From contig NZ_JAVALZ010000006.1 in NCBI RefSeq assembly GCF_030730865.1, positions 62,001-126,000 of the forward strand: DNA of 64,000 bases, given 5' to 3'. Position 1 is the first letter of the stretch; every line of letters begins with the position of its first letter. The stretch comes from Uliginosibacterium sp. 31-16. Lineage in GTDB: Bacteria > Pseudomonadota > Gammaproteobacteria > Burkholderiales > Rhodocyclaceae. Under the pieces are notes generated by a model. It was given only the letters and a program-made list of their open reading frames with translations, made no database searches and was not told where the DNA came from. The position numbers were made by a program, and so were the translations under genes. Shown here in pieces: positions 580 to 40,233 of the stretch.

Positions 580-686
580 GAAGAGGCGCTTGCAGCCTTG
601 ATCTGCAGGCAGGCATGCTGGCAAGACCCGACAGGCATGGTTCTCCAGCACATCCGCCTGAAGAAGACCGCCGGATGCGGCTCTTC
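580..686. repeat. Dispersed intergenic element, copy 1
   Basis: About 107 bp. The left end reads GAAGAGGCGCTTGCAGCC and the right end GGATGCGGCTCTTC, which are imperfect inverted repeats. Inside are GGCAGGC and TGGCAAGA words shared with other copies. It lies between speD and the por operon. Short open frames across it are not credible genes. Confidence 0.7.
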
Positions 687-701
687 GAGCCCCCGCTCAG
701 C

Positions 702-738
702 AAGAAAAACGCCCGCTGGCACGAGGCGAGCGGGCGTT
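702..738 (-). terminator. Rho-independent terminator of the por operon
   Basis: AACGCCCGCT (709-718) pairs with AGCGGGCGTT (729-738). On the minus strand the stem is followed by GTTTTTCTT. It lies just after the stop of the last por gene. Confidence 0.85.
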
Positions 739-760
739 CAAGGCGAGCGGACCAGAGCGA

Positions 761-2386
761 TCAGGTCTGCTCGGATTCCATCTTGATGGCGCCGCAAGGA
801 CATTCTTCCACGCACACACCGCAACCCTTGCAGTAGTCGTAGTTGAATTCGAAACCCTTGCCGGGGCCGAGCTTGATCACTGCGTTATCCGGGCATACGC
901 CGTAGCAGTTATCGCACTCGAAACAATTGCCGCAGGAGAGACAGCGACGTGCTTCAAACAGGGCGTTGTCTTCGTTCAGGCCACCCTGCACTTCATCAAA
1001 GGTCGATTGACGACGGATGATGTCCAGCATCGGACGCACCGTCTTGTCGGCATCGGTGTAGTACCAGGTGTTGAGCTTCTCGAAGTTGGCCAGTTCGGGC
1101 TTGGCCGGCTTGACGTAGGTCGTGCCGTTGAGCCATGCGTCGATGTGGCGTGCGGCGAGCTTGCCGTGACCGATACCGACGGTGACGGTACGGTCGGACG
1201 GGACCATGTCGCCACCGGCGAAGATGCCGGCGTAACCGGTCATCATGTTGTCACCCACCTGTACGACGCCGTCCTGGAAGGTCAGGTCGGGCACGCCGTT
1301 GAGCAGGCCCAGATCGACGTCCTGACCCAGCGCCAGCACCACGGAGTCGGCTTCCAGCGTGTCGAATTCGCCGGTCGGAACGGGCTTGCCGTTCTCGTCC
1401 AGCTCCATCTTCTCGACCTGGATGGCACCCTCGCCCACATGCTTGATGGTGGACAGCCAGCGCATCATCACGCCTTCCTGCAGCGCCTCTTCGACTTCGA
1501 AGTCGTGCGCCGGCATCTTGTCGCGGGTGCGGCGGTACACGATGATGGCTTCTTCAGCGCCAAGACGCTTGGCGGTACGGGCCACGTCGATGGCGGTGTT
1601 GCCGCCGCCATACACGACCACGCGCCGGCCCAGCATCGGCTTGTCTTCACCTTCCATGCTGCGCAGCACGGCCACGGCATCGAGGATCTTGGCCGATTCG
1701 GCAGCCGGAATGGCGGTGCGCTTGGCGATGTGCGCGCCCACAGCCAGGAAGGCCGCGTCGAATTTCTCGTCCTTCATGGTCTTGAGGAGATCTTCGACCT
1801 TGGTGTTCAGACGCATTTCAACGCCCATGTCGATGATGCGCTGCACTTCGGAGTCCAGCACTTCACGCGGCAGACGGTACTTCGGAATGCCGAAGCGCAT
1901 CATGCCACCCGCCAGCGGACCGGCTTCGAAGATCACGACCTGGTGCCCCATGCGGCGCAGCTGATAGGCGGCGGACAGACCGGAAGGGCCTGCGCCGACA
2001 ACGAGGATGCGCTTGCCGGTTTCCTTGCTAGGGGCCTCGAATTTCCAGCCCTGCTTGATGGCCTCGTCACCGAGGAAGCGCTCCACCGAGTTGATGCCCA
2101 CGGCCGAGTCGAGCTGACCACGGTTACAGGCGCCTTCACAGGGGTGATAGCACACGCGCCCCATCACGGCAGGCATCGGATTGGCCTGGGTCAGATGACG
2201 CCAGGCGGTTTCGTAGTCACCGGATTCGGCGTGGTAGAGCCAGCCCTGGGTGTCTTCGCCGGCCGGGCAAGCGTTGTTGCACGGCGGCAGACGCTTGATG
2301 TAGGTCGGGCGGAAGGTCCGCCAGGTGCCGGTCTTGTTGGCGAGCGACGAGCCAACATTCAGCGTGATTGCAAACGGTTTGTTCAT
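761..2386 (-). CDS. GltD-like FAD/NAD(P)H oxidoreductase fused to a 2[4Fe-4S] ferredoxin domain (Por-associated)
   Basis: This 541-residue protein is the last gene of the por operon. The N-terminal part has the Cys pattern of glutamate-synthase small subunits (CNNACPAG, then CYHPCEGAC), an FAD-binding GxGxxG (VVGAGPSGLSAAY) and an NAD(P)H-binding VVYGGGNTAIDVA. The last 80 residues are a PorD-like ferredoxin domain with two Cys clusters (CLSCGNCFECDNC and CKGCGVCVEECPC). It probably moves electrons between ferredoxin of the pyruvate oxidoreductase and NAD(P)H; the direction is not known. The ATG at 2386 has GGGGAG upstream; an in-frame extension to 2506 runs into the porB coding region and is rejected. 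It lies 19 bp after porB. Confidence 0.85.
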   Translation of the reverse strand: MNKPFAITLNVGSSLANKTGTWRTFRPTYIKRLPPCNNACPAGEDTQGWLYHAESGDYETAWRHLTQANPMPAVMGRVCYHPCEGACNRGQLDSAVGINSVERFLGDEAIKQGWKFEAPSKETGKRILVVGAGPSGLSAAYQLRRMGHQVVIFEAGPLAGGMMRFGIPKYRLPREVLDSEVQRIIDMGVEMRLNTKVEDLLKTMKDEKFDAAFLAVGAHIAKRTAIPAAESAKILDAVAVLRSMEGEDKPMLGRRVVVYGGGNTAIDVARTAKRLGAEEAIIVYRRTRDKMPAHDFEVEEALQEGVMMRWLSTIKHVGEGAIQVEKMELDENGKPVPTGEFDTLEADSVVLALGQDVDLGLLNGVPDLTFQDGVVQVGDNMMTGYAGIFAGGDMVPSDRTVTVGIGHGKLAARHIDAWLNGTTYVKPAKPELANFEKLNTWYYTDADKTVRPMLDIIRRQSTFDEVQGGLNEDNALFEARRCLSCGNCFECDNCYGVCPDNAVIKLGPGKGFEFNYDYCKGCGVCVEECPCGAIKMESEQT

Positions 2387-2405
2387 TGTTTCAACTCCCC
2401 TTGCC

Positions 2406-3455
2406 TTACTTGTGCTCGCTGTCGGGGAAGCCGACAACAGCCTTGTCGTTACCGAGCAGACCGAACTTGTGGATGTTCTGGTCAGCCATCGCCTGGAAAC
2501 GCGCAATCAGTTCAACCTGCGGTTTCTTGCCGAACAGGTGGGCAAAGCGGCGCTGCAGGCGCAGATAGGCTTCCACCGGCTGCTTCTGGCGGATCTTCGA
2601 CACATTCGTCACTTCACCGTATTCGGCTTCGAACACCGGGAACAGACCGGTTTCCTTGGCCAGGCGGGCGAGCTTGATGGTGTCGTGCGAAGCGGAGCCC
2701 CAGCCCAGCGGACACGGCACGAAGATGTGGATGTAGCGCGCGCCACGCATGCTCATGGCCTTCTTGACCTTGTATTCCAGGTCGCGCAGGTCCGACACGC
2801 TGGCCGTTGCCACGTAGGGAATGCCGTGCGCCATGGCAATCAGCGGCACGTTCTTGCCCTGACCCCAGTCGTTGCCCGGATGCTCACCCACCGGCATGGT
2901 GGTCGCGGTACGGGCCGCCGGCGGAGTGGCGGAAGAGCGCTGCACACCGGTATTCATGTAGGCCTGATTGTCGTAACAGATGTAGAGCACATCGTCATTA
3001 CGCTCGAACATGCCGGAGAGACAGCCGAAACCGATGTCGGTGGTGCCACCGTCACCGCCCTGGGCGATCACGCGCACCTCGGGCAACTGCTGGCCGGCCT
3101 TGCGCGCGCGGACCTTGGCGGCGGCAGCCACCCCGGTTGCCACAGCGGCGGCGTTGCCGAACAGCGAGTGGATCCATGGAATTTGCCAGGAGGTTTCCGG
3201 ATACGGCGTGGAGAACACTTCCAGACAGCCCGTGGCGTTGACCGCAACCAGCTGGTTGTTGGTGGCGCGCATCGCAGCGTCGATCGCATAACGTGCGCCG
3301 AGCGCTTCACCGCAGCCCTGACAGGCACGGTGGCCGCAGTTCAGCGAGTTGGTACGTTCGATTTCCGACTGTACCGAACGCTGTTCAGGTGGCAGCAGGC
3401 GATTGCCGACGGTGAAGGTGCCGGTCTGATAGAACTTTACGTCTTGATGTCCCAT
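2406..3455 (-). CDS. porB: Pyruvate:ferredoxin oxidoreductase beta subunit
   Basis: At 349 residues this is the thiamine pyrophosphate-binding subunit that, with PorA and the gamma subunit, interconverts pyruvate plus CoA and acetyl-CoA plus CO2 using ferredoxin. Visible marks are the Fe-S cysteines C40, C45 and C48 (CGHRACQGC), the TPP motif GDGGTTDIG from about residue 134, and the conserved PCPLGW near residue 248, which probably supplies the fourth cysteine. A related 2-oxoacid such as 2-oxoisovalerate cannot be ruled out as substrate. It starts 11 bp after the porA stop. Confidence 0.88.
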   Translation of the reverse strand: MGHQDVKFYQTGTFTVGNRLLPPEQRSVQSEIERTNSLNCGHRACQGCGEALGARYAIDAAMRATNNQLVAVNATGCLEVFSTPYPETSWQIPWIHSLFGNAAAVATGVAAAAKVRARKAGQQLPEVRVIAQGGDGGTTDIGFGCLSGMFERNDDVLYICYDNQAYMNTGVQRSSATPPAARTATTMPVGEHPGNDWGQGKNVPLIAMAHGIPYVATASVSDLRDLEYKVKKAMSMRGARYIHIFVPCPLGWGSASHDTIKLARLAKETGLFPVFEAEYGEVTNVSKIRQKQPVEAYLRLQRRFAHLFGKKPQVELIARFQAMADQNIHKFGLLGNDKAVVGFPDSEHK

Positions 3456-3466
3456 GTCTGCTCTCC

Positions 3467-4720: not shown

Positions 4721-5291
4721 GCGCGGCCTCCATGGCTGCCTTGGCGATGTTGTAGGCCTCGGTGGCGGCGGCGATATTGCCGTCGGCGACCTTGCCCGAG
4801 AATTTGTCACGAATGGCGGCGACCACCGAATCCAGCGAAATCAGGCCGGAAACCGCAGCGAACGCGCCGAGCAGCGGCACGTTGGGTGCATTGCGGCCCA
4901 CATGCTTGAGCGAGAGATCGGTCGCCGACACGGCAACCAGACGCTCCGGACGAATCCGCTTGGCCAGATCGCCCAGCCCCAGATCCTCGAAGCTGTGATT
5001 GGTGTTGAGCACGACGTAACCGTCTGCCGAAAGACCTGCGAAAACATCGATCTGATGCAGCAAGGTGGCATCCTGAATGATTAGGGCATCCGGTTCCATG
5101 ACCGGCTCGCGCAGCCGGATTTCCTTGTCTGCAATACGACAGAAAGCCACAACTGGCGCTCCTGTCCGCTCCGAGCCGAAACTCGGAAATGCCTGTGCGT
5201 GACGGCCTTCAAGGAAAGCTGCGATGGAGAGCATTTCAGCCCCCGTCACCACCCCTTGACCACCGCGCCCGTGAATCCTCACCTGGAACAT
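4713..5291 (-). CDS. porG: Pyruvate:ferredoxin oxidoreductase gamma subunit
   Basis: This 192-residue subunit heads the por operon. It starts with the family motif VRIHGRGGQGVVT and continues with FPSFGSERTGAPV, both typical of the gamma (CoA-domain) subunit of 2-oxoacid:ferredoxin oxidoreductases. The ATG at 5291 follows GGGAG by six bases. The operon order gamma-alpha-beta-flavoferredoxin, all tightly spaced, indicates one transcript. Such an enzyme is oxygen-sensitive in many organisms, so the operon may serve micro-oxic or anaerobic growth; that is inference. Confidence 0.87.
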   Translation of the reverse strand: MFQVRIHGRGGQGVVTGAEMLSIAAFLEGRHAQAFPSFGSERTGAPVVAFCRIADKEIRLREPVMEPDALIIQDATLLHQIDVFAGLSADGYVVLNTNHSFEDLGLGDLAKRIRPERLVAVSATDLSLKHVGRNAPNVPLLGAFAAVSGLISLDSVVAAIRDKFSGKVADGNIAAATEAYNIAKAAMEAAHA

Positions 5292-11140: not shown

Positions 11141-13091
11141 ATCGCGCCCCAGCCCGCCCCTGCCACGCGAAGCCGGTTTCTTCCTGCTGGCCACTGCCGC
11201 ATTGGGGCTGGCGCCCTTCGTACCCTATCTACCCTGGAGCCTGAGCCTGCTTGCCGCCCTGCTCCTGCTCTGGCGTGGCGTACTGGTCTGGCGCGACGCA
11301 CCGCCCCCAGCCCGCTTCACCCTGCTACTGGCTGCCGCCCTGGGCATTGTCCTGACTGTCGCGAGCTATCACACCATTTTCGGCAAGCAGGCGGGCCTGA
11401 GTCTGCTGAGCATGCTGCTGCCGCTCAAGCTGCTCGAAGCCCGCACGCGCCGCGACGGCCGGGCCGCCCTGTTGCTGTGCTGCTTCCTGCTCACCGGCCA
11501 GTTCCTGAATGCACAGAGCATGGCCGTGGCCGCTTTCGTACTGTTGTGTGCCACCGCCATCGTAGCCACCAGCGCCAAACTGGAACAGCCCGGACAGGCG
11601 CCCCGCGGAGCACTGCGCACCGCCTTGCGCCTTCTCGGTGGCGCGGTGCCGCTGATGCTCCTGCTGTTTGTCCTGTTCCCGCGCATCAACGGCCCGCTCT
11701 GGGGCATGCCGCTGGACGCCTATGCTGGCAGCACCGGTTTGTCGGACAGCATGCGTCCTGGTTCGATCTCGGAGTTGATCCAGTCCGGCGAAATCGCCTT
11801 TCGGGTCGAGTTTGAAGGCACACCACCCGCTCCCGCGCAACGCTACTGGCGCGGCCCGGTGCTGAGCGAGTTTGACGGTCAGGAATGGAAGGTTCGTGAA
11901 TCCATGCTGCGACGCGCCCCGACCTACACCGTCGCGGGGCCGGCGTATCGCTACTCTCTCACGCTGGAGCCTCACAACCGTGGCTGGCTGCTGGCACTAG
12001 ACTACCCCGACAGCGGCGCCGCCGATGCGCTGTACGGCGACGATCTGGTGTTGCTGGCGCGCCGCCCGGTACGCAATCGCGTACGCTACAACCTGACATC
12101 CTTCCCCGAAACACCGGTGGGCCTGCAGGAGCGCGAGAACGTCCTGAAAGCCGCACTGCGTCTGCCTCCCGCAAGCAATCCCCGGACAAGCGCACTGGGC
12201 GCGGGCCTGCAGGCAGGCAACGCAGAGCCTGCAGCGCGTGTCGAGGCGGCCCTGCGCTTCATGCGCGAGGCACGTCTGGCCTATACGCTCAGCCCGCCAT
12301 TGCTGGGCCAGCACCCTGCCGATGAATTCCTGTTCGACACAAAACGTGGTTTCTGCGAGCACTTTGCCGGCAGCTTCGTCGTACTGATGCGTGCGGCCGG
12401 CGTACCGGCGCGCGTGGTCACAGGCTATCAGGGTGGCGAATTCAATCCGGTGGATGGCACGCTGGTCGTACGCCAGTCGGATGCCCATGCCTGGGCCGAG
12501 GTCTGGCTGGCAGGCCGGGGCTGGCAGCGCGTGGACCCGACCGCAGCCAGCTTCCCGCGCCGAATTGATGAGGGCATCGCCCGCGCCCTGCCCGAGGGTG
12601 AAGCCATGCCGATCATGCTGCGCCAGAACTTCGAATTCCTACGTAGCTTGCGCTATCGCTGGGAGGCCATCAGCAATGGCTGGAATCAGTGGGTGCTCGG
12701 CTACAACGCCCAACGCCAGCTCGATCTGATGCGCTCATTGGGGCTGCCGGATGCAGACTGGCGCCAGCTCGCCGGGCTGCTCGCCGCCTGCGCCAGCGCC
12801 TGGCTGCTGTGGCTGGGGCTACGCCTGTGGCCACGCCATGCCCGGCTGGATGCTCTGGACCGCTGCTGGCGTCGCCTGTGCCGCAAGCTGGCCCGCCAGG
12901 GTGTCCGGCATCAGCCATGGGAAGCGCCTGGCGACTTTGCCCGCCGTGCCGCCGCAGCCCTGCCACAGCATGCCGACACCATCATCGCGATTGCCGAGCA
13001 CTACGCCACGCTGCGTTACGGGCCGGGCGTCGAAAAACCGGCCACGCAGCTCGCCGCACTGCGCGCCGCCGTGCAACAATTCAGGCCATGA
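11133..13091 (+). CDS. tgpA: Membrane transglutaminase-like protein, TgpA type
   Basis: This 652-residue protein has a cluster of N-terminal membrane helices (residues about 12-190), a periplasmic transglutaminase-like domain with a complete catalytic triad (C408 in GFCEHFAG, H452 in DAHAWAEVW and D468 in RVDPTAA), and another membrane helix near residue 550 before a cytoplasmic DUF4129-like tail. TgpA of Pseudomonas aeruginosa is essential for viability; the substrate is not known. The ATG at 11133 overlaps the DUF58 stop by eight bases. Confidence 0.87.
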   Translation: MAESRPSPPLPREAGFFLLATAALGLAPFVPYLPWSLSLLAALLLLWRGVLVWRDAPPPARFTLLLAAALGIVLTVASYHTIFGKQAGLSLLSMLLPLKLLEARTRRDGRAALLLCCFLLTGQFLNAQSMAVAAFVLLCATAIVATSAKLEQPGQAPRGALRTALRLLGGAVPLMLLLFVLFPRINGPLWGMPLDAYAGSTGLSDSMRPGSISELIQSGEIAFRVEFEGTPPAPAQRYWRGPVLSEFDGQEWKVRESMLRRAPTYTVAGPAYRYSLTLEPHNRGWLLALDYPDSGAADALYGDDLVLLARRPVRNRVRYNLTSFPETPVGLQERENVLKAALRLPPASNPRTSALGAGLQAGNAEPAARVEAALRFMREARLAYTLSPPLLGQHPADEFLFDTKRGFCEHFAGSFVVLMRAAGVPARVVTGYQGGEFNPVDGTLVVRQSDAHAWAEVWLAGRGWQRVDPTAASFPRRIDEGIARALPEGEAMPIMLRQNFEFLRSLRYRWEAISNGWNQWVLGYNAQRQLDLMRSLGLPDADWRQLAGLLAACASAWLLWLGLRLWPRHARLDALDRCWRRLCRKLARQGVRHQPWEAPGDFARRAAAALPQHADTIIAIAEHYATLRYGPGVEKPATQLAALRAAVQQFRP

Positions 13092-14158
13092 TCATCAAGC
13101 CTCACCTGCTGGCCCTGTGCGCCAGCCTGCTCCTGCCCCTGACTGCCCTGGCCGGAGATTTCAGCCAGCGCGAAGACGTGCAGGCGTTCATCCGCGATGT
13201 TGCGCAACGCCAGAATTTCAGCCCGGCTCAATTGCAAGCGGCCTTCGACGACGCCCAGGCCCTGCCCAAGGTCATCGAACTGATCCGCCCGCCCGCCAAC
13301 CCTGGCGTGCGCAGCTGGCAGCGCTATCGCCCACGCTTCATCAACAACCAGCGCATCTCTGCGGGCGTGCAGTTCTGGCGCGAACACGCACAAACCCTCG
13401 CTGCGGCAGAAGAAAAAACCGGCGTACCGGCCGAGATCATTGTCGGCATCATCGGCGTGGAAACCGTGTATGGCCGCAACATGGGCAATTTCAGCGCCCT
13501 GTCCGCACTCACCACGCTGGCCTTCGACTATCCGCCGCGCGCGGATCTGTTTCGCCGCGAACTCGAAGCTCTGTTCCTGCTCGCCCGTGAGCAGGGCCGC
13601 GACGTGCGCGACTACCGCGGCTCCTACGCCGGTGCGCTCGGCCAGCCGCAGTTCCTGCCCAGCAGCATTCGCAGCTTTGCCGTCGACGGCGATCAGGACG
13701 GGCACATCGATCTGCGCGAAAGCGCCACCGACGCCATTTTCAGCGTCGGCAACTTCCTCGCCAGCCACGGCTGGCAGCGTGGCGCGCGCATCGTTTTGCC
13801 CGCGCAGGTGGACGATGAAACCCAGGTCAAACCGCTGATCGACGCCGGCATCCTGCCCGCACTGGACGGCAAGCTGTTGCGTCAGGCCGGTGTGCACAGT
13901 GATCTGTCCGACCAGGCCAGCGAACTGGTCACTCTGGTCGACATGGTCAGCCCGGGCTTCCCGACCGAATACTGGCTGGGGTTCCAGAATTTCTACGTGA
14001 TCACGCGCTACAACCGTAGCAGTTTCTACGCCATGTCGGTGCACGATCTGGGGCACGCAGTGAAACTGGAATTCGCGGCACGCCGCGATCTGGCCCAGCT
14101 GAGCAAAGCGCCTGTACCCAAGACCTCTGCCAAGAAGACATCGAAGAAGGCTCCCTGA
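13088..14158 (+). CDS. mltB: Lytic murein transglycosylase B
   Basis: This 356-residue periplasmic enzyme cleaves the glycan strands of peptidoglycan with formation of 1,6-anhydromuramic ends. The catalytic Glu is E125 in GIIGVETVYGRN, followed by the family motif GALGQPQFLPSS. The signal peptide ends ALAG without a lipobox Cys, so unlike E. coli MltB it is probably soluble. The ATG overlaps the transglutaminase stop (ATGA), placing it as fourth gene of the MoxR operon, which is an uncommon location. The tail is Lys/Ser rich. Its stop codon lies inside the end of a dispersed repeat. Confidence 0.9.
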   Translation: MIIKPHLLALCASLLLPLTALAGDFSQREDVQAFIRDVAQRQNFSPAQLQAAFDDAQALPKVIELIRPPANPGVRSWQRYRPRFINNQRISAGVQFWREHAQTLAAAEEKTGVPAEIIVGIIGVETVYGRNMGNFSALSALTTLAFDYPPRADLFRRELEALFLLAREQGRDVRDYRGSYAGALGQPQFLPSSIRSFAVDGDQDGHIDLRESATDAIFSVGNFLASHGWQRGARIVLPAQVDDETQVKPLIDAGILPALDGKLLRQAGVHSDLSDQASELVTLVDMVSPGFPTEYWLGFQNFYVITRYNRSSFYAMSVHDLGHAVKLEFAARRDLAQLSKAPVPKTSAKKTSKKAP

Positions 14159-14265
14159 AGAGCCGCTTCTGACAGCCTTCTCCAGCACATCACCCCGCAC
14201 ATCCGCTTGTAGCCTTGCTGAGCAGGACGGCATACTGCAGAAGAAGTCTGCACGCGGCTCTCCAG
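14156..14265 (+). repeat. Dispersed intergenic element, copy 3, starting at the mltB stop codon
   Basis: About 110 bp from TGAAGAGCCGCTTCTGACAG to CACGCGGCTCTCCAG. The first three bases are the TGA stop of mltB. It ends just before the rpoS terminator. Confidence 0.7.
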
Positions 14266-14318: not shown

Positions 14319-15257
14319 CTAGAAAAGCACCTCGCGTGACACACCACGTCGCTTCAGAATGCGGCGCAGCTGGGCCAGCGCTTCAAGCTGGATCTGGCGC
14401 ACCCGCTCGCGTGTCAGGCCAAGCTGTTCGGCGAGGTCTTCCAGCGTCAGCACCTCTACATCATCCAGCCCATAGCGATACTGGATCACCAGGCGCTGTT
14501 TCTCCGAAAGCTGACTGATCCATTCGCGAATCAGGGCTTCTACCTCGGAGGTGTGAATCGACAGTTCCGGACTGATCGCCTGATCGTCGGCCAGCGACTC
14601 GCCGATCGAGAGGTTCGGGTCAATGTCCAGCGGTGCATCCAGTGACGCAGTATGCTCGGACAGAGCCAGGATCTCGCGCACTTCGCCCACCGGCCGATCG
14701 AGCTTCCGGGCGATGTCTTCCAGTCGCGAAGACTGGCCGTTGCTCGACTCCACCTGACGTTGCGCACGCAACACCTGATTGAGCTCCTTGACCACATGCA
14801 CCGGCAGGCGAATGGTGCGCGACTGGTTCATGATCGCGCGCTCGATGTTCTGACGGATCCACCAGGTCGCATAAGTCGAGAAGCGGAAACCGCGCTCGGG
14901 ATCGAATTTCTCCAGCGCATGCATCAGGCCGAGATTGCCCTCCTCGACCAAATCCAGCAGCGGAATGCCTCGGTTCAGGTAGTGCTTGGCAATATTCACG
15001 ACCAGTCGCAGATTGCGTTCGATCATGATCTGGCGCGCTTCGAAATCTCCCAGACGAACCCGGCGGGCCAGTGCCGCCTCTTCTGTCGCGGTCAGCAGGG
15101 GATTGAGGCCGATTTCGTTGAGATAGATCTGGGTTACGTCGTTGAGGAATTCGCTTTCAGGCACCGGCGCCGGCAAGGCCTCGGCAAATGCCTCCAGTTC
15201 CGGGGGAAGCTCCGCTTCCTTTTCTTCTGGCTCGTCAAGGAACTCCGGATCGAACAT
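14319..15257 (-). CDS. rpoS: RNA polymerase sigma factor RpoS
   Basis: This 312-residue sigma-70-family protein is the stationary-phase and general stress sigma factor. Region 2 is clear ([20 protein letters not shown], then [13 protein letters not shown]), region 3 follows, and region 4 ([19 protein letters not shown]) closes the protein. Length and position after surE-pcm-nlpD are typical of RpoS and not RpoD or RpoH. The N terminus is acidic. GAGG precedes the ATG, 7 bp after nlpD. As in other proteobacteria, a further rpoS promoter may lie inside nlpD, but I could not locate it. Confidence 0.94.
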
Positions 15258-20418: not shown

Positions 20419-22794
20419 TCAGGCACGCAGGCGTCCCCCCAACTCTCGCTCGGCAGCGCTGATCAGCGTCCGCATCGCGTTATCGATTTCAGTCTCTTCC
20501 AAGGTGCGCTCAGCATGCTGGAGCATCACCCTCAACGCAATGCTCTTCTGATCCGGTTCGATACCTTTGCCCGAATAAACATCAAAAACGGCGACTTCAC
20601 GCACAATTCCAGTCGCAGCAGACCGCAACACCGACAACAAGACATCTGCCGTTACAGTATTGCCAACGACCAGCGCCAGATCGCGCATGACCGCCGGATG
20701 ACGAGGCAATTCGGCAAACGAGGGCACACCTGCGGCCAGCACCTGCTCAAGATCCAGTTCAAAAAGCACCGGAGCAGAAACCAGATCGTAACGTTGTACC
20801 AGAGCTGGATGCAGTTCACCCATGAAGCCTGTCACAGTCCCATCTACTTTGACCGCCGCCGAGCGGCCCGGATGAAAGGCGGGATGTTTATCAGCGACAA
20901 ATTCGGCACGACCACCCAGCAACAACTCGACATCGCGCTTTACATCATAGAAATCAACACGGCGCGAAGTCTGCCCCCACTGCTCAGGAGCGGCCGGCCC
21001 CCACGCCAGGCCCGCCACGCGCACAGGCTGCGAGTAGCCCGAGACCGGTAAGCCTGCAGCATCCTTGGCAAAACAACGCCCGACTTCGAACAGACGCACG
21101 CGGCTGGCGCGGCGACGCTGGTTGGCGCTCAAAGCCCCTACCAGACCGCCGACAAGGCTGGAGCGCATCACACTCATCTGACTGGCGATGGGATTGGCCA
21201 ACTTGACCGGATCGACATTGCCGGCGAAGTCACGCTCCCACGCCTCTTCAACAAAAGCGTAGCTGATGACCTCCTGATAATCCTGAGCCGCCAGCTGGCG
21301 GCGCAGCCGGTGCACCGGACGTGTGGCTTCGGTACTGGCCAGCATCATTGCCGGGCCCTTGGGCGGCAGCGGCTGGATGTTGTCGTAGCCATACACGCGC
21401 GCCACCTCTTCGATCAGATCTTCCTCGATCTCGATATCGAAGCGGTAGCTGGGCGGGATCACCTGAAGAGCCGCGCCAGCATTGGCTGTGCACATACCCA
21501 GGCGGGAGAGTGAGGCCAGCATTGCCTCATCAGACACCTCGAAGCCCAGCACCTTGCGCGCACGATCCGGGCGGAAATTCACGGCCTTGCGCTGCGGCAG
21601 ATGCACAGCCGATGCTGCCTCCACCACCGGACCCGCAGCAGCACCACAGATCTCGACGATCAGCTGGCTGGCACGCGCCATGGCACGCTGAGCAAGTTCG
21701 AAATCCACGCCGCGTTCGTAACGATGCGAGGCATCGGACGAAAAGTTCAATGCACGAGCACGCCCCACAATGGCGTCCGGCTGGAAGAAGGCTGACTCCA
21801 GGAAAATCTCGGTCGTGTCGTCCGACACGCCAGTGTCTTCACCGCCCATCACACCGGCCAGCGCCAGTGCACGGGCTTCATCGGCGATCAGCAGCATGTT
21901 GGCCGCTGGCTCGATTTCCTGCCCGTTCAGCAAGGTGAGCTTTTCACCGGCTTGCGGCCAGCGCACATGAATGGCACCCGAAAGCTTCGCGTTGTCGAAG
22001 GCATGCAGCGGCTGGCCGAGTTCCAGCATCACGTAGTTGGTGATGTCGACCACGGCGCTGATCGAGCGCACGCCACAGCGCTCAAGACGCGCTTTCATCC
22101 AGTCCGGCGTCGCGGCCTTGGCGTTAACGCCGGTAAAAATCCGGCCGCAGTAACGCGGGCAGGCTTCCGGCGCATCCAGCACGACGCTGCGCTGCTGCGC
22201 GTGGCTCACCGCCACATCCAGCGGTGCGGTCAGCGTGGCCGGCGTACCCGTCAGCGCTGCCAGCTCACGCGCCACACCAGCCAGACTCAGACAGTCGGCA
22301 CGGTTCGGGGTGAGCTTGATGGTTATCTTCTTGTCATCGAGCGCGAGGTATTCGCGGATGCTGGCCCCTACCGGCGCATCGGCCGGCAACACCAGCAGCC
22401 CGTCGTGATCCTGACTCATACCCAGCTCATCGGCCGAACACATCATGCCGAAGGACTCCATGCCACGCAGCTTGGCAGGCTTGATCTCGAAGCCGGGCAG
22501 CTTGGCGCCCACCATCGCGCACGGGGCTTTCATGCCTTCAACAACATTGGGCGCACCGCACACGATCTGCAGCAGCTCGCCCCGCCCCACATCCACGCGG
22601 CATACGCGCAGCTTGTCGGCATTCGGGTGCTTCTCGAAGGACACGATCTGCGCCACGACCACACTGGTAAAGGGCGGCGCAACGGCTTCGACCTCTTCGA
22701 CTTCAAGGCCTGCCATGGTCAGCAGATGGCACAACTCTTCGGAGTTGAGCGGCGGATTACACAGGGCACGAAGCCATTGTTCGGAAAACTGCAT
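20419..22794 (-). CDS. pheT: Phenylalanine--tRNA ligase beta subunit
   Basis: This 791-residue subunit pairs with PheS as an alpha2-beta2 enzyme that charges tRNA-Phe. The N-terminal EMAP-like tRNA-binding domain ([20 protein letters not shown]) is followed by the B3/B4 editing domains, the B5 domain and a C-terminal anticodon-binding (FDX-ACB) domain containing FDVYSGKGI. Length is normal for the family. It follows pheS after 52 bp. Confidence 0.95.
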
Positions 22795-27569: not shown

Positions 27570-28016
27570 ATGAAAGCCCTACTTGGACTGCTCGCCCTTG
27601 TTGCTGCCAGCTTGTTGCTGGCGGCCTGCGCCAGCACGAAGTTTTATCCGCACGAAAGCCGCGACAACAGCTACATGGGCAAGGGTGGCTCCCGCTTCAC
27701 CACGGAAGGGATGGATGTGTGGTTCATTGGCGAGCCGGATCGCAAATACATGATCCTTGGCTACATCGAGGATGAGTTCAACCCAGCCGTCGATGAGCGT
27801 CATCAGAGCGTATCTGACGCCGTACTGAAAAAGGCGCGCGAGATTGGCGCTGACGCACTGATCGAAGTCGTTACCCAGACGCGCACCGGCAGCAGCATCT
27901 CTACCGGTGGCATGTTTGGCGGCCGTCACAGCGGCGTAGGCATGGGCATAGGTTTCGGCGTCCCGCTCAGCGAGCAGAAAAACGCCCGTTACACGGCGAT
28001 CCGGTATCTGAACTAA
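27570..28016 (+). CDS. Small lipoprotein of unknown function
   Basis: This 148-residue protein has a lipoprotein signal ending LLLAAC and then a soluble domain with HQSVSDAVLKKAREIGADALIEVVTQ, a pattern like the YbjQ/DUF4156 group of heavy-metal-binding-like and lipoprotein folds that often read ARxxGADAxI. A Gly-rich stretch (TGGMFGGRHSGVGMGIGFG) lies near the C terminus. CAGGAG sits six bases before the ATG. I do not recognise a specific function. It is a single gene between tRNA-Val and orn. Confidence 0.75.
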   Translation: MKALLGLLALVAASLLLAACASTKFYPHESRDNSYMGKGGSRFTTEGMDVWFIGEPDRKYMILGYIEDEFNPAVDERHQSVSDAVLKKAREIGADALIEVVTQTRTGSSISTGGMFGGRHSGVGMGIGFGVPLSEQKNARYTAIRYLN

Positions 28017-28022
28017 GTTCTC

Positions 28023-28132
28023 TGGAGACCCGCACCGGGCGGACCTCTTCAGAGAGGCTGCCTGAAAAGCCTCGGGCAGCAAGGCTTTTCAGGCCAGCGC
28101 CTTGCAGAGCAAGGCAGGACGCGGCTCTTCAG
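28023..28132 (-). repeat. Dispersed intergenic element, copy 4, starting at the orn stop codon
   Basis: About 110 bp. Read on the minus strand it begins CTGAAGAGCCGCGTCCTGCC, and the TGA is the orn stop codon (28129-28131). The far end reads CCGGTGCGGGTCTCC. The centre holds a further inverted repeat, GCCTGAAAAGCC with GGCTTTTCAGGC. It fills the whole gap to the convergent lipoprotein gene and may serve as a terminator. Confidence 0.7.
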
Positions 28133-28680
28133 GCAGGCAACTTCAGGAAGTTGTCACGGTAATAGCGCAATTCTTCAATCGACTCGCGAATATCCGCCAG
28201 CGCGGTGTGCGCTTCGCTCTTCTTCACGCCCGCCAGCACCGGCGGATTCCAGCGCCGCGCCAGCTCCTTCAGGGTGCTGACATCGATGTTGCGGTAGTGG
28301 AAATACGCCTCCAGCGTCGGCATGTAGCGCGCCATGAAGCGGCGATCCTGACCGATGGTGTTGCCGCACATCGGCGTCGTGCGCTTGGGCACCCACTGCG
28401 CCATCCACTCCAGATACAGGGCTTCAGCGGCGGCTTCGTCGGTGGTCGAAGCGCGCACGCGCTCGATCAGGCCGGATTTGCCGTGGGTGTTCTTGTTCCA
28501 GTCGTCCATCGCATCCAGCGTCGCCTCAGATTGATGCACCACGACCACCGGGCTCTCGGCCAGCACGTTGAGATTCACGTCGGTGACGATCATGGCGATC
28601 TCGATGATGCGGTCCGTGTCCGGCTCCAGTCCGGTCATCTCCATATCCAGCCAGACGAGGTTGTTTGCATCCTGTGCCAT
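28129..28680 (-). CDS. orn: Oligoribonuclease
   Basis: This 183-residue 3'-5' exoribonuclease degrades dinucleotides and very short RNAs, including pGpG from cyclic di-GMP breakdown. The DEDD active site can be followed: D12 and E14 ([11 protein letters not shown]), the central Asp in [11 protein letters not shown] and the final His-Asp in [19 protein letters not shown] precedes the ATG. It is divergent from the M48 peptidase gene; orn, M48 peptidase and rsgA commonly sit together in betaproteobacteria. Confidence 0.95.
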
Positions 28681-30913: not shown

Positions 30914-31018
30914 CGAAGAGCCGCACCCGGTGGCCCTGTTCAGGCAGGCACGCTTGCAAGCCAAGCCCCATGCGGCTCTCCGGCAAGCCTGCCGTGTGAC
31001 CCGGATACGACGCTCCGG
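30914..31018. repeat. Dispersed intergenic element, copy 5 (diverged)
   Basis: It begins CGAAGAGCCGCACCC just after rsgA and contains CATGCGGCTCTCCGGCAAGCC at 30969-30989. The right end is ambiguous: either that GCGGCTCTCC (67 bp) or GGATACGACGCTCC at 31003-31016 (about 105 bp). The remaining gap to 31129 is also rich in CCGGCATG-type palindromes. Confidence 0.55.
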
Positions 31019-31973: not shown

Positions 31974-32660
31974 ATGCTCGATACCCTGCGTTCCGTCACC
32001 ACGCCCGAATTGATCGAAGTCCAGCTGCGCCCGGCGGGTCTGCTGCCGCGCACGCTCGCCTGGCTGATCGATTTCGCCATCCGCCTGGGGGTCGTGATGA
32101 GCGTGGGCACGGTGCTGGAAAGCCTGGGCGACTTCGGCGGCGGCCTGCTGCTGCTGCTCTACTTCGGACTGGAATGGTTCTACCCGGTGCTCTTTGAAGT
32201 GCTGGGCAAGGGCGCCACGCCGGGCAAGCGGGCACTGAATCTGGTGGTGGTCAACGCCAATGGCACCCCGATCGGCTGGGGCGCCTCGATGACCCGCAAC
32301 CTGCTGCGCACTGCTGATTTTCTGCCTTTTGCCTACGGTTTCGGCATGGTCACGATGCTCTGTCACAGGGAATTCCGCCGGCTGGGCGATATCGTCGCCG
32401 ACACGCTGGTGGTCTATCGCGAGAAGCAGCAAGCCTTGCCGGATCTGGCAGAGGCCACGCCGATCATGCCCACGGCGCCGCTGGACCGTGCCACCCAGCG
32501 CGCACTGGTCGCCTTTGCCGAACGCGCCCGGGGCCTCACCCCGGCGCGCCAGGAAGAGCTGGCCGATCTGGTGCCGCACCTGGCGCACGACGCCACCGGT
32601 CCGCAGGGCGCGGAGCGGCTGCTGGGGCTGGCCAATCACCTGATCGGGCGGCGCACATGA
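31974..32660 (+). CDS. RDD family membrane protein (MoxR module 2)
   Basis: This 228-residue protein has the RDD hallmarks: ELIEVQLRPAGLLPRTLAWLIDF at the start, a two-helix membrane hairpin, GKGATPGKRALNLVVV and HREFRRLGDIVADTLVV. Its C-terminal 60 residues are soluble. RDD proteins are poorly understood; some take part in transport. It is the first gene of a chain in which most junctions overlap: RDD, SpoIIM-like, DUF4129, DUF4350, MoxR, DUF58. Confidence 0.85.
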   Translation: MLDTLRSVTTPELIEVQLRPAGLLPRTLAWLIDFAIRLGVVMSVGTVLESLGDFGGGLLLLLYFGLEWFYPVLFEVLGKGATPGKRALNLVVVNANGTPIGWGASMTRNLLRTADFLPFAYGFGMVTMLCHREFRRLGDIVADTLVVYREKQQALPDLAEATPIMPTAPLDRATQRALVAFAERARGLTPARQEELADLVPHLAHDATGPQGAERLLGLANHLIGRRT

Positions 32661-33634
32661 AGCAGGAATTTTTCGAGCAGCAGCACGCTGCCGACTGGCA
32701 GGCCTTCGAGCAATGGCTGAAGCTCTCTGTCAACAAGCGCAAGGACCGGCCGCCCCTGCCGTTTGCCGCCCACGAACTGCCGCAACGCTACCGCCACCTG
32801 TGCCAGCATCTGGCCCTCGCCCGTGACCGCGACTACAGCCTGTCGCTGGTCGAACACCTGCATCAGCTGGTCCAGCAGGGGCATGACCTGCTCTACGGTG
32901 CGCAAGGCAATTTCGGCCAGCGCGCCTGGGCCTATGCGGCAGGCGGCTTCGCTGCCGATGTGCGCGCCAACCGCTGGTGGGTACTGGCGGCAGCGCTGCT
33001 GCTGTTCGGCCCGCAACTGGCGATAATGCTGGCCGTACACCTGCAACCGGATCTGGCCTATCTGATCATGAGCCCGCTGGAAGTGGCGCGCATGGAGCAG
33101 ATGTACAGCAACGATGCGCAAACGCTGGGACGCGTGGCCCGCGAGGCCTCGACCGATTTCCAGATGTTCGGCTTCTACATCTTCAACAACGTCAGCATCG
33201 GCTTCCGCTGCTTTGCGGGTGGTATCACGGCCGGGCTGCTGACAATCACCGCGCTGGTTTTCAATGGCCTGTCCTTCGGGGTGGTCGAGATGCGTCTGAC
33301 CCAGGCCGGGCTGGCCGAGAACTTCTATTCCTTCGTGATCGGCCACAGCGGTTTCGAGCTCGGCGCCATCATCCTCTCCGGCGCGGCGGGTCTGCGTCTG
33401 GGCCATGCCGTCATCGCCCCGGGCCAGCGCACGCGCGGTGCCGCCCTGCGCGACACGGCCCGGGCGCTGATCGGCATGGTCTGCGGACTGGCGGTGATGC
33501 TGGTCATCGCCGCGCTGATCGAGGCCTTCTGGTCACCCCTCAAGCTGGGGCTGCCGATCAAGCTGAGCGTGGGCGGCGTGCTGTGCGTGCTGCCGCTGGT
33601 GTACTTCGTGTTTGCCGGAAGGAGGCGTGCATGA
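32657..33634 (+). CDS. SpoIIM-like membrane protein (MoxR module 2)
   Basis: This 325-residue protein matches the stage II sporulation protein M family in layout: a soluble head, then several membrane helices including NNVSIGFRCFAGGITAGLLT and ENFYSFVIGHSGFELGAIILSGAAGLRLG. In spore formers SpoIIM acts in septal peptidoglycan hydrolysis; in this non-sporulating lineage it is part of MoxR clusters of unknown role. ATGA overlaps the RDD stop. Confidence 0.83.
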   Translation: MKQEFFEQQHAADWQAFEQWLKLSVNKRKDRPPLPFAAHELPQRYRHLCQHLALARDRDYSLSLVEHLHQLVQQGHDLLYGAQGNFGQRAWAYAAGGFAADVRANRWWVLAAALLLFGPQLAIMLAVHLQPDLAYLIMSPLEVARMEQMYSNDAQTLGRVAREASTDFQMFGFYIFNNVSIGFRCFAGGITAGLLTITALVFNGLSFGVVEMRLTQAGLAENFYSFVIGHSGFELGAIILSGAAGLRLGHAVIAPGQRTRGAALRDTARALIGMVCGLAVMLVIAALIEAFWSPLKLGLPIKLSVGGVLCVLPLVYFVFAGRRRA

Positions 33635-33647
33635 GGCACCGCCTCGC

Positions 33648-33752
33648 AAAGCCGCTTCCACAGTCACTCTTCAGCCAGGCATTGCCAGGAGCCCACACAC
33701 ACGGCGGTTTCCGGCATGCATGCTTGAAGATGACCGTCCGATGCGGCTCTTC
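33648..33752. repeat. Dispersed intergenic element, copy 6, inside the MoxR module
   Basis: About 105 bp from AAAGCCGCTTCCACAGTCAC to CCGATGCGGCTCTTC. It sits in the 147-bp gap between the SpoIIM-like and DUF4129 genes, the only long gap within the module. Confidence 0.68.
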
Positions 33753-36602: not shown

Positions 36603-37570
36603 CCCTGCCCGTCACGCCCCTTGAAGCCACTGAACTGGCGCGCCAGCTGCGCGCCGAAGTTGCCCGCGTTTTCGTCGGCCAGACCGCGGTTGTCGAGCAC
36701 ACCCTGTGTGCCCTCATTTCCGGCGGCCACATTCTGCTGGAAGGCGTGCCAGGGCTGGGCAAGACCCTGCTCGTCAAGGCACTGGCGAAGACCTTCGGCG
36801 GCCAGTTCTCGCGCATCCAGTTCACACCGGATCTGATGCCCGCCGACGTCACCGGCCATACGCTCTACGACACGCGCAGCAGCCAGTTCGTGATCCGCCG
36901 CGGCCCGGTCTTCGCCAATCTGGTGCTGGCCGACGAAATCAACCGCGCCCCAGCCAAGACCCAGGCCGCGTTGCTTGAAGTGATGCAGGAAGCGCAGGTC
37001 ACCATCGAGGGCAAGACCATCCCGCTGCCGCCGCCCTTCCTGGTCCTCGCCACACAGAATCCGATTGAGCAGGAGGGCACCTACGCCCTGCCCGAAGCAC
37101 AGCTCGACCGTTTCCTGCTCAAGGTGCTGATCGACTACCCAACACACGATGAGGAGCGCGCGCTGGTTGCCGCCTCCTGCGCCGGACGCACCGGTGATCG
37201 TCTCGAAGTGGAAGCCGTGCAGCAGGTCGCCACGCCCGAGCAGCTCATCGCCATGCAACAGATTGCCGCTGGTCTGCGCGTCGATGACAGCGTGCTCGAC
37301 TACGCCGTGCGCATCGTCCGCGCCACCCGCGAATGGTCCGGCATTGCCATCGGTGCCGGTCCGCGCGGCGCCATTGCGCTGGTGCGAGCTGCACGCGCCA
37401 TGGCCCTGATTGCCGGGCGCGATTTCGTCACCCCCGACGACGTCAAACGCATCGCCCTGCCCGCGCTGCGCCACCGCATCAGTCTGGTTCCGGAAGCCGA
37501 GATCGAAGGCCTGTCGATTGATGGCGTGCTCGGCAGCCTGCTGGCGCGCACGGACGCACCCCGCGCATGA
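36599..37570 (+). CDS. MoxR-family AAA+ ATPase (module 2)
   Basis: This 323-residue ATPase has Walker A EGVPGLGKT, Walker B LVLADEINRAPAK, the sensor LVLATQNPIEQEGTY and the C-terminal lid ending in RHRISLVPEAEIEG. It is closer to the common MoxR subfamily than the module 1 protein, which carries ATQNPSQQIGTF instead of the more usual ATQNPIEQEGTY. It is coupled by ATGA overlaps on both sides (DUF4350 and DUF58). Confidence 0.92.
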   Translation: MTLPVTPLEATELARQLRAEVARVFVGQTAVVEHTLCALISGGHILLEGVPGLGKTLLVKALAKTFGGQFSRIQFTPDLMPADVTGHTLYDTRSSQFVIRRGPVFANLVLADEINRAPAKTQAALLEVMQEAQVTIEGKTIPLPPPFLVLATQNPIEQEGTYALPEAQLDRFLLKVLIDYPTHDEERALVAASCAGRTGDRLEVEAVQQVATPEQLIAMQQIAAGLRVDDSVLDYAVRIVRATREWSGIAIGAGPRGAIALVRAARAMALIAGRDFVTPDDVKRIALPALRHRISLVPEAEIEGLSIDGVLGSLLARTDAPRA

Positions 37571-38874
37571 ACCTGCCCTCCCGGCACCTTCTCGCCGCGC
37601 TCGGCATCTGGCTCGCCCTGGCAATCGCCACGGCCTTCCTGCCCGCCATCCTGTCCTGGTGCACGGGGGTGGGCGTGGTGCTGATCCTGTGGGCGGCGGC
37701 AGACTGGCTGCTGGTCCGGGCGCAGGCCCTGCCTGCTGCCCAGCGTGTGGTGAACGGCACGCTGGCCGTGGGCGAATGGTCACCGGTGGAAGTGCGCCTG
37801 CACTGGGCCGGCGCCGTGCCCGCGCAACTTGCGGTCTTCGATCATCATCCCGCCGGCTTCCAGCAGGAAGGCCTGCCCGGCCAGATCGTCACCACCGGCA
37901 AGAACAGCTTCGCCCTGCGCTACCGGGTGCGGGCGCTCCTGCGCGGCGACCATCGCTTCGGCCAGATCGAGCTGCGCACAGTCTCGCCCTGGCGCGCCTG
38001 GCTGCGTCAGGCAAAAGTCGGCGAAGCACAGGACGTGCGCGTCTATCCCAACTTCGCACCACTCGCCCGCCACGCCCTGCGCGCCGTGGACTACCGCAAC
38101 GCGCGCTTCGGCCTGCAGCAGCGCCGGCGGCGTGGTCAGGGCATGGATTTCTCGCAGCTGCGCGAATACCGCGAGGGCGACTCCATGCGCCAGATCGACT
38201 GGAAAGCCACCACGCGCATGGGCAAGATGATCTCGCGCGAGTATCAGGACGAACGCGACCAGCGCATCCTGCTGCTCGTCGACTGCGGCCGGCGCATGGG
38301 CGCACGCGACGGTGAGCTTTCACACTTTGACCACGCCCTGGATTCGGTGCTGATGCTCGCCTACGTGGCGCTCTCCCACGGCGACCGCGTCGGTCTGATG
38401 ACCCTCGGCGGGCCGGAGCGCTACCTGCCGGCCCAGCATTCACAGGCCACCGTCAGCCGCATCCTGCGCGAGACCTACGATCTGCAGCCCAGCCTGCAGG
38501 TCAGCGATTTCGAACGCGCCGCCCAGCAACTGCTGCTGCGCGAACGCAAACGCGCGCTGGTCGTACTGATGACCAACCTGCGCGACGAAGATGATCAGAG
38601 CCTGATCGCCGCCACACGCCTGCTCGGCAGCCGCCACCTGGTGCTCGTCGCCAGCCTGCGTGAATCGGCACTGGATCAGGCGCAAAGCGACACCATCGCC
38701 AACGCCCACGACGCGGCGCGGCTGGCCGCCGCCGTCGGCTACGCCCGCCGCCGCGAAGCCGCGCTCAAGCGCCTGCGTGCCGAAGGCGTGCTGTGCCTCG
38801 ATGTGGCACCGGAAGATCTGGCGATTGAAACCGTGAACCGCTATCTGGCTGTGAAGGCGGCGAGCCAGCTGTAA
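37567..38874 (+). CDS. DUF58 domain protein (MoxR module 2)
   Basis: This 435-residue protein has two N-terminal membrane helices, a beta-rich middle and a VWA-like C-terminal half. The DUF58 signature is EYREGDSMRQIDWKATTRMG, followed by LLLVDCGRRMG, a degenerate metal-ion-dependent adhesion site. It is the last gene of the module; a short lipoprotein gene follows after 30 bp. Together with MoxR it probably remodels envelope complexes; substrates are unknown. Confidence 0.87.
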   Translation: MNLPSRHLLAALGIWLALAIATAFLPAILSWCTGVGVVLILWAAADWLLVRAQALPAAQRVVNGTLAVGEWSPVEVRLHWAGAVPAQLAVFDHHPAGFQQEGLPGQIVTTGKNSFALRYRVRALLRGDHRFGQIELRTVSPWRAWLRQAKVGEAQDVRVYPNFAPLARHALRAVDYRNARFGLQQRRRRGQGMDFSQLREYREGDSMRQIDWKATTRMGKMISREYQDERDQRILLLVDCGRRMGARDGELSHFDHALDSVLMLAYVALSHGDRVGLMTLGGPERYLPAQHSQATVSRILRETYDLQPSLQVSDFERAAQQLLLRERKRALVVLMTNLRDEDDQSLIAATRLLGSRHLVLVASLRESALDQAQSDTIANAHDAARLAAAVGYARRREAALKRLRAEGVLCLDVAPEDLAIETVNRYLAVKAASQL

Positions 38875-38904
38875 CGGGGTCGTTACGCCCTTCAAGGAGA
38901 ACCC

Positions 38905-39174
38905 ATGCAACGCCTTCTGATCCGTGCCGCCACGATCGCCATGGCGCTTTCGCTGTCGGCCTGCGCTTCGGTCTATGGGCTGACCTGCAGCGGCGCCTAC
39001 GCCTGCCCGGGCGACAAAGTGATGGCAGGCACCCAGATTGATGCCGCGCTGGTGGCCGGCGCCACCAACAATTGCTCCGCCGAATGCTGGATGGGTGTGC
39101 TGGCGGCGGTTGATTTCCCCTTTTCGTTCGTTCTGGACCTCGTGGCCTTGCCCTACGCGCTGATTGCCCGCTAA
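38905..39174 (+). CDS. YceK/YidQ-type small lipoprotein
   Basis: This 89-residue lipoprotein has a signal ending SLSAC and the short YceK-like tail DFPFSFVLDLVALPYAL. Four further cysteines in the middle (C52 to C66 region is not fully conserved) could form disulfides. AAGGAGA precedes the ATG. It may be transcribed with the MoxR module, being 30 bp downstream. Function unknown. Confidence 0.76.
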   Translation: MQRLLIRAATIAMALSLSACASVYGLTCSGAYACPGDKVMAGTQIDAALVAGATNNCSAECWMGVLAAVDFPFSFVLDLVALPYALIAR

Positions 39175-39188
39175 GCAGCGACTCATCA

Positions 39189-39296
39189 AAGAGCCGCTTC
39201 TGGCAAGCCTTTTCAGCCACCCGGCCCTATCAAGCAGGCTCCGCGCGCTTCACCCGACAGGCCACCTGAAGACCCTTGCCAGATGCGCCTCTCCAG
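39189..39296 (+). repeat. Dispersed intergenic element, copy 7
   Basis: About 108 bp from AAGAGCCGCTTCTGGCAAGC to AGATGCGCCTCTCCAG. This copy best matches copies 3 and 8 at the left end. It lies between the YceK-like gene and the SDR gene. Confidence 0.7.
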
Positions 39297-39368
39297 ACAT
39301 CACCGCTCTTCAGCCGGTTTAACCGCAGCCACATCATCACGATCTCAACGCACGATCAGGAGGCAAAA

Positions 39369-40088
39369 ATGAAGCTCGCCATCATTTCCGGTGGTTCCCG
39401 CGGTCTGGGCGCCGCGTTGTGCCGGCAGTACCGCGACGCCGGGTTTGAACTCGTCGAGTTCTCGCGCAGTGCGCCGCATCCGTTCTCGGTGGCCTGCGAC
39501 TTCACCAACCCGGCACAGGTCGCGCACAGCGTGGCCGAGCGCCTGGCGCCGCTCGCGGCGGGTCAGGCGGTCAGTGAACTCGTGATCATCAGCAACGCCG
39601 CGATGCTCGACCCGATCGGCCCGGTTTCGCGCAAGGCGCCCGCAGCAGTGCAGGCCAACCTGAATGCAAGCCTTGTATCCGCCATCCTGTTCATGAGCGA
39701 AGCCATCCGCTATTTTCAGAGCAGCGCGGCGCGCAAGACGCTGGTGAGCATCTCCTCGGGCGCGGCCACCAAGGGGCACGCGGGCTGGTCGCTGTACTGC
39801 GCGGCCAAAGCCGGTCTGGATAATTTCATGCGCGCGCTGACGCTTGAACAGGCCCTCGAAGCGCGTCCGTTCCGCACCCTGATCATTGATCCGGGCATCA
39901 TGGATACAGCCATGCAGGCCGATATCCGCGCGAGTAGCCGGGAAGACTTTCCGAGCGTAGAACGCTTTCAGGGGTTCCTGCGTGACGGTGCACTGCGCAC
40001 GCCCGAACAGATCGCTACCGCGATCCGGACCATCATCGCCGGAGAGCATGCCAGCGGCGAACGCCTGATCGCCGCCGACTTCATCTGA
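39369..40088 (+). CDS. Short-chain dehydrogenase/reductase family protein
   Basis: This 239-residue SDR has the NAD(P)-binding GGSRGLG at residues 9-15, NNA-like SNAAML and the active-site Ser and YxxxK (ISSGAATKG; LYCAAKAG, where Tyr-x3-Lys is kept). The closest family may be sepiapterin reductase / benzil reductase-like SDRs, but the substrate cannot be read from the sequence. A strong CAGGAGG lies six bases before the ATG at 39369. It is monocistronic. Confidence 0.85.
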   Translation: MKLAIISGGSRGLGAALCRQYRDAGFELVEFSRSAPHPFSVACDFTNPAQVAHSVAERLAPLAAGQAVSELVIISNAAMLDPIGPVSRKAPAAVQANLNASLVSAILFMSEAIRYFQSSAARKTLVSISSGAATKGHAGWSLYCAAKAGLDNFMRALTLEQALEARPFRTLIIDPGIMDTAMQADIRASSREDFPSVERFQGFLRDGALRTPEQIATAIRTIIAGEHASGERLIAADFI

Positions 40089-40121
40089 ACCACGACTTCG
40101 CAAGCAATCCCGCCGGGCATC

Positions 40122-40233
40122 ATCTGCAGACCCGCATCCAGCGGCACTCTGCAACACCCCTGGCCGCACAGTGAATCCCCGTGCGGCCCACATGGCAGGC
40201 CACCCGAAGATGCTTGCCAGAAGCCGCTCTTCA
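40122..40233 (-). repeat. Dispersed intergenic element, copy 8, starting at the DUF4349 stop codon
   Basis: About 112 bp. Read on the minus strand it begins TGAAGAGCGGCTTCTGGCAA, nearly identical to copy 7, and ends GGATGCGGGTCTGCAG. The TGA is the stop codon of the DUF4349 gene. It fills the gap to the convergent SDR gene. Confidence 0.68.

Follow-up and report, generated by a model that had tools for sequence, protein, structure and literature searches.

Among the palindromic protein sites that are spread over bacterial chromosomes, matS and parS are single short palindromes present in tens of copies or fewer, and we know of no triple array at a 40-bp pitch among architectural or segregation sites. 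Here we describe an array of three pseudo-palindromes at this pitch in a 64-kb stretch of Uliginosibacterium sp. 31-16 (C6:62001-126000 of a 3.90-Mb genome in 8 contigs, below called the window) and across the genome. Like repetitive extragenic palindrome (REP) doublets forming hairpins (REPINs) and bacterial interspersed mosaic elements (BIMEs), as characterised in the portion of PMC3116915 that concerns them, the arrays make up one genome-specific family of hundreds of copies, which prefer extragenic positions and have conserved inverted ends around a variable middle. Unlike them, the array has three palindromes at a fixed pitch, no hairpin covariation, copies formed in place within coding sequence and little sign of copying. 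It also recalls the DNA uptake sequences (DUS) of Neisseriaceae and the uptake signal sequences (USS) of Pasteurellaceae, which, in the relevant part of PMC3630211, are genome-wide and core-genome biased, lie in coding and 3' regions, carry a TGA stop in the motif, occur as species dialects and form dyad pairs in some genomes. In contrast to these, the array is a degenerate unit of 107-120 bp present in hundreds rather than thousands of copies, and lone half-sites are rare. REPINs and DUS come closest among known kinds, and for each of them the array lacks a defining feature that was tested. On balance we lean towards reading the array as a composite double-stranded DNA site for a putative protein, maintained by substitution, with a nucleoid-type use slightly ahead of a self-DNA mark.

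Anatomy and abundance of the array

The layout consists of three 27-bp pseudo-palindromes, at array positions 1-27, 41-67 and 81-107, joined by 13-bp linkers to give a pitch of 40 bp and a total of 107 bp (27+13+27+13+27). Seven copies of this length in the window start with GAAGAG and finish with CTCTTC. The linkers are themselves weakly palindromic, so that a dyad falls every 20 bp, and weak conservation runs ~6 bp past each end. This anatomy follows from an unbiased histogram of spans over 400 kb, which peaks at 107 (23 cases), 27 (18) and 67 bp (14), all other spans occurring at most three times. Units lie 40 bp apart in 190 cases and 80 bp apart in 101. Arrays with three, two and one palindromes number 101, 41 and 159 in 864 kb (contigs C2 and C3 and the window) and 37, 24 and 71 in contig C1 (400 kb), and none with four was found in the 1.26 Mb searched. 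Most of the lone palindromes may be chance matches, since a reversed unit matrix gives 108 of them in 864 kb.

A search with the exact ends GAAGAGCCGC...GCGGCTCTTC and a free gap of 60-90 bp finds nine places in the genome, every one spanning exactly 107 bp, and none for the control. With the span fixed at 107 bp and up to three mismatches allowed across the 20 bases of the ends, 206 places match (control 0), and a strict pattern with at most two mismatches gives 125 copies. An iterated symmetric matrix recovers 166 copies in the 864 kb (76 in C2, 79 in C3 and 11 in the window) above a first-order Markov null with a maximum of 2.3 bits, two-palindrome arrays being caught as well. Column-permuted matrices give no match above 10 bits in five trials, and the real matrix matches 276 positions, neighbouring registers included, against 19 for the reversed matrix. 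Once registers are merged, 151 copies exceed 20 bits, compared with 4 for the reversed matrix, a mean of 0.7 over 48 spacing-shifted matrices, and 1, 5 and 0 for block-order controls. When trained on the 864 kb and applied to the held-out C1, the matrix finds 62 copies above 20 bits (2 when reversed). The total of 213 copies in 1.264 Mb corresponds to ~650 per genome if an even density is assumed. An earlier note on this DNA had described an interspersed, mostly intergenic family with inverted ends, too divergent for recent insertion, all of which is borne out, and the fixed-span and held-out counts set the family apart from chance matches.

Copies in the window

The window holds the following arrays, with the scores of their palindromic units in order:

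580..686, three-palindrome array, 107 bp, between two minus-strand genes; units 23.0/17.5/28.3, 107-bp matrix 80.1 bits
7880..7986, three-palindrome array, 107 bp, between two minus-strand genes; units 25.2/8.7/23.8, 75.0 bits
14157..14263, three-palindrome array, between convergent mltB-like (13088-14158) and rpoS-like (14319-15257) genes; units 28.2/14.5/23.3
21465..21531, weak two-palindrome array within pheT (20419-22794), which may be chance; units 15.1/11.2
28024..28130, three-palindrome array that takes up the gap between the convergent genes 27570-28016 and 28129-28680; units 27.5/28.4/26.7, 87.3 bits, the best in the window
30915..30981, two-palindrome array of 67 bp on the 3' side of an rsgA-like gene; units 34.3/20.6
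33646..33752, three-palindrome array, 107 bp, 3' of gene 32657-33634; units 20.1/5.7/23.9
39188..39294, three-palindrome array, 107 bp; units 22.1/10.8/30.8
40126..40232, three-palindrome array between convergent genes 39369-40088 and 40231-41076; units 16.9/4.6/30.6
47905..48011, three-palindrome array within the hda-like gene 47760-48446, over the P-loop, absent from the earlier note; units 10.9/18.6/6.3, 46.6 bits
55754..55860, three-palindrome array within open reading frame (ORF) 55430-56677, absent from the earlier note; units 17.1/5.1/18.1, 50.5 bits

All eight places given in the earlier note hold a member of the family. Its length of 105-112 bp is indeed near-constant, with seven of the eight at exactly 107 bp, and the quoted range stems from the placement of the ends; the copy that it put at 30914-31018 belongs to the family but is the two-palindrome form of 67 bp. 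The TGA stop of the mltB-like gene falls within CTGAAGAG of the array at 14157-14263. ORF 55430-56677 has no Pfam match. The adjacent minus-strand ORF at 56678-57964 has below-cutoff NCBIfam matches to ankyrin-type models of type IV secretion system effectors and to a sigma-like part of MzaA.

Half-site types and probable recognition as double-stranded DNA

Half-sites fall into two types, distinguished at positions 9-10. The outer halves carry GC (type A), and the next halves carry CC, TT or AG (type B), with a CCGC-like word 2 bp further inward. The first palindrome is A-B in 99 of 140 copies and the third B-A in 91 of 140. In the middle palindrome AB (37), BA (24), AA (10) and BB (20) all occur, the remainder being unclassified, and mixed pairs are above expectation (Fisher p 0.0012). 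Among 56 held-out copies the outer halves are of type A in 47 and 44, the second and fifth halves are of type B in 48 and 37, and the middle palindrome shows the same direction (8 AB, 13 BA, 5 AA and 4 BB). Palindromes tend to pair one A and one B half, and the outer two share a direction relative to the centre.

Mutual information over 153 copies is highest between adjacent columns (0.95 bit for 58-59, 0.89 for 18-19, 0.65 for 49-50 and 0.59 for 89-90, with a median of 0.05), and the weaker distant pairs of columns, at 0.15-0.18 bit, match no stem. Compensatory base changes, suggested as a check in the earlier note, are absent over 143 copies, where the Watson-Crick excess over independence gives z values of 0.38, -1.82 and 0.62 in the three palindromes, 1.47 and -0.21 in the linkers and -1.70 end to end; over all antidiagonals the top value is 2.7 with a spread of 1.14. 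When palindrome halves are exchanged among 196 copies the hairpins are no weaker (p 0.19, 0.60 and 0.20), and swaps of whole halves or 40-bp units among them have no significant effect (p 0.10-0.60). Symmetrised base frequencies show no T enrichment beside the element, and a separate hairpin-plus-T stretch adjoins the array in the mltB-rpoS gap. At gathering score, Rfam 15 matches only 5 tRNAs in the window and no RNA family at the arrays.

The lack of covariation, together with the linkage of neighbouring bases and the mixed half-sites, favours recognition of the array as double-stranded DNA over recognition as a hairpin. A hairpin or RNA reading was dropped on the adjacent-column linkage, the absent covariation and the neutral half-swaps. 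The hairpin-based REP sequences or structured mRNA 3' ends entertained in the earlier note are on this account less supported, although a cruder folding test, weighed below, gives a signal in their direction.

Copies within coding sequence

Eighteen of the 151 copies above 20 bits lie in coding sequence, where the reversed matrix gives none, the 48 spacing-shifted matrices a mean of 0.02 and the block-order controls 0, 2 and 0. Twenty-one copies are wholly within called genes and use the three frames 6, 8 and 7 times. The product of the hda-like gene in the window matches Hda_lid and Bac_DnaA of Pfam, and at its array the alignment is gap-free for the protein itself and for those of relatives G002 and G004, while that of G001 is three codons short (the rows of G005 and G006, which were in the wrong orientation, were left out). 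The best matrix scores of the relatives are below -2. Locus L213 was rejected as an Hda orthologue, being a weak 25% match.

Domain length was compared with Pfam profiles for ten proteins from the 21 wholly intragenic copies. For LigA, GlnE, a heptosyltransferase and an alanine dehydrogenase, the domain that contains the site has a residue count within 1 of the profile length. Among the other six, one site is inside a domain with fewer residues than profile positions (200 versus 220) and one inside a domain with 11 more (405 versus 394), two are partly covered and two are outside the domain. Because no residues have been added in Hda and the four domains, the copies in these proteins evolved in place by substitution and not by insertion. 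The non-autonomous mobile element considered in the earlier note is correspondingly less supported, and beyond two local pairs the diversity of the family equals that of independent draws from its profile; those pairs do show copying (below). Outside genes, the gap at orn measures 112 bp, and in three relatives 72, 120 and 122 bp.

Placement along the genome

A simple gene finder places 125 of the 153 copies above 18 bits outside genes or overlapping them by at most 40 bp. These extragenic copies comprise 47 in convergent, 69 in tandem and 9 in divergent gaps, and the gaps of at least 60 bp available number 75, 281 and 88, respectively. The copies are mostly 3' of genes, and the preference is strong. 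The distance from stop codon to element was obtained in 162 cases; it is 0-30 bp in 69 of them and exactly -2 in 12, where the TGA stop lies inside CTGAAGAG. Even spacing along the chromosome was considered and rejected, the regularity being that of random placement in non-divergent gaps.

Arrays are sparse in stretches of low GC content and poor codon fit. The first 98 kb of C2 contain 2 and the next 302 kb contain 66, and there are none in C3 60-80 kb or in window 60-64 kb. The stretches concerned (window 60000-64000, C2:1-98000 and C3:60001-80000) have a GC content of ~0.55-0.58 and resemble islands of acquired DNA. There are tRNA genes near window 58094-60945.

Related genomes and the literature

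The strict pattern was sought in 780 other genomes, made up of 7 from the same genus and others from the same family and order. Each has 0 or 1 match; one match occurs in 13 genomes, as it does for the reversed control pattern, and the 7 same-genus genomes have none, so the pattern is present in the related genomes examined only at chance level. Proteins compared with the nearest relative, G005, are 85% (Hda), 85% (RsgA), 95% (RpoS) and 98% (orn-like) identical. The assembly contains no 16S gene for taxonomy, and PheT reaches at best 49.6% among plasmid records, to Neisseria; an affiliation with Betaproteobacteria is only presumed. A spaced-word search recovers the arrays in 340 kb of the genome's own DNA and nothing similar in 340 kb of same-genus G004, where it picks up a 105-bp TCTT...TCTT signal; an inverted-word spectrum was insufficiently sensitive even on the genome itself. 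At locus L216 of G002, 3' of rsgA, where the window genome has an array, there is a GTAG-type REP-like inverted pair (GTAGGGCCGACTTCAGTCGGCC on the opposite strand).

Arrays of the same type in named genomes were considered and rejected; of at least 111 matching stretches, the sequences inspected among those listed belong mostly to two separate high-copy families of inverted repeats, the remainder being chance matches, and none has the three-palindrome layout by eye. One family, in the Gemmataceae metagenome-assembled genome (MAG) TH-Jun18-262 (L012, L013, L016 and others), is 105-119 bp long, reads GAAGAGCCGCAGATGACGCAGA... and has near-complete complementarity; the other, in the Phycisphaerae MAG RS_17_44 (L006, L010, L020 and others), is mostly 93 bp with GCCGCGGGCTTCAGCCCGCGCGG arms. 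A viral scan returned a single, unrelated 120-bp span. Literature searches met no description of such an array, a result that does not itself establish absence from print.

Interpretation and alternatives

A protein that binds as three dimers would be expected to impose a fixed geometry, a limit of three and two types of half-site, as seen here. Each copy can be viewed as six 20-bp half-sites of alternating orientation, which would form the three pseudo-palindromes at 40-bp pitch. A sequence-specific protein, as a hexamer or a cooperative trio, would bind these as three dimers and may, more tentatively, act genome-wide rather than on single promoters. Most copies would arise and persist by substitution under selection or drive, with local copying rare.

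Several results weigh against this interpretation. No binding protein turned up, no direct search for one having been made, and holding ~65 bits of information at ~650 places would demand much of selection. At one spot the reversed matrix scores as high as 27.8 bits. The A and B classes were defined on the same data as their first count, and in the held-out copies the mixing of the middle palindrome reaches only p 0.061. Real copies fold at -52.3 kcal/mol, compared with -49.5 for shuffles of 3-column blocks (p 3e-4; -40.7 for random genomic DNA). We attribute this gain to the breaking of local words, which the half-swap test supports but does not prove. The mltB-rpoS gap is 160 bp, against -17 in one relative (177 longer), and may reflect an insertion there. 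Nearest-neighbour identity among copies is slightly higher than in simulated independent draws (0.635 versus 0.612; mean pairwise identity 0.48). Finally, two pairs of copies, in the same orientation and with random similarity outside, are 83% and 80% alike, the similarity ending sharply at the element:

C3:33015 and C3:33995, 980 bp apart, copied pair
C3:238744 and C3:239867, 1123 bp apart, copied pair

With C1 added (203 copies), no other pair exceeds 0.72. Local copying of the unit is possible but accounts for few copies.

The best surviving alternative, itself unlikely, is a self-DNA mark, in which an uptake receptor would recognise the array and copies would accumulate passively where tolerated, through more frequent uptake and recombination of the DNA that carries them (molecular drive). 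The in-place origin, the copies in coding sequence and permissive 3' gaps, the scarcity in island-like low-GC stretches and the confinement to one species would all fit. Molecular drive has reportedly been proposed for the neisserial and Haemophilus uptake sequences. The portion of PMC3630211 on uptake sequences likewise describes a location in the core genome, copies within genes, inverted pairs close to terminators and the dyad pairs of Simonsiella. However, known uptake sequences are 10-12 bp long in thousands of near-identical copies, whereas 1.16 Mb, with both strands counted, contains the commonest word of the element 95 times, in 17 cases outside arrays, and known uptake words rarely, at 1-18 occurrences each. 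Additive drive also predicts more arrays of one or two palindromes than of three, yet triples outnumber doubles. We consider an intracellular architectural protein of nucleoid type slightly more likely than a self-DNA mark that biased uptake maintains.

We regard as improbable, and more so, an old REPIN- or BIME-like family, now mostly decayed, that was spread through single-stranded hairpins by a REP-associated tyrosine transposase (RAYT). The inverted ends, variable middle, hundreds of copies and extragenic preference resemble such families, and the two copied pairs are in keeping with one. A search for RAYT genes, proposed in the earlier note, did find two PF01797 matches in this genome, each with one array nearby on one side (~325 and 370 bp from the matched stretch). 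However, about one third of genes are estimated from the density to adjoin a copy, which makes this closeness unremarkable, and 7 of 7 same-genus genomes carry RAYT without a single array. A decayed family would also have lost the 107-bp length and conserved words while its copies came to resemble independent draws, and neither the absent hairpin covariation nor the in-place copies within conserved coding domains would be expected of it. A bidirectional transcription terminator or structure stabilising mRNA 3' ends is very improbable, for although it would account for the strong 3' preference and for folding better than that of random genomic DNA (-52 versus -41 kcal/mol), there is no covariation, copies occur in genes, no T-run flanks the element, the mltB-rpoS gap has its own hairpin-plus-T stretch, and RNA hairpins need no fixed linkers.

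Implications

We hold out as a possibility, with considerable doubt, that the array belongs to a novel class of genome-wide DNA marks. On this view a protein of six subunits would recognise a 120-bp site that substitution had put into hundreds of places, coding sequence included, during the existence of a single species, and the grammar of A and B halves would fix polarity. If the arrays are protein sites, ~650 long composite sites, some of them inside conserved genes such as hda, would have been gained since divergence from relatives with 85-98% identity in the proteins compared. A genome would then have been rewritten towards a single DNA-binding specificity at unusual speed and on an unusual scale, and the case would offer an opportunity to find out whether selection or biased transfer is responsible. 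The fixed 40-bp pitch and the limit of three provide a sharp biochemical prediction.

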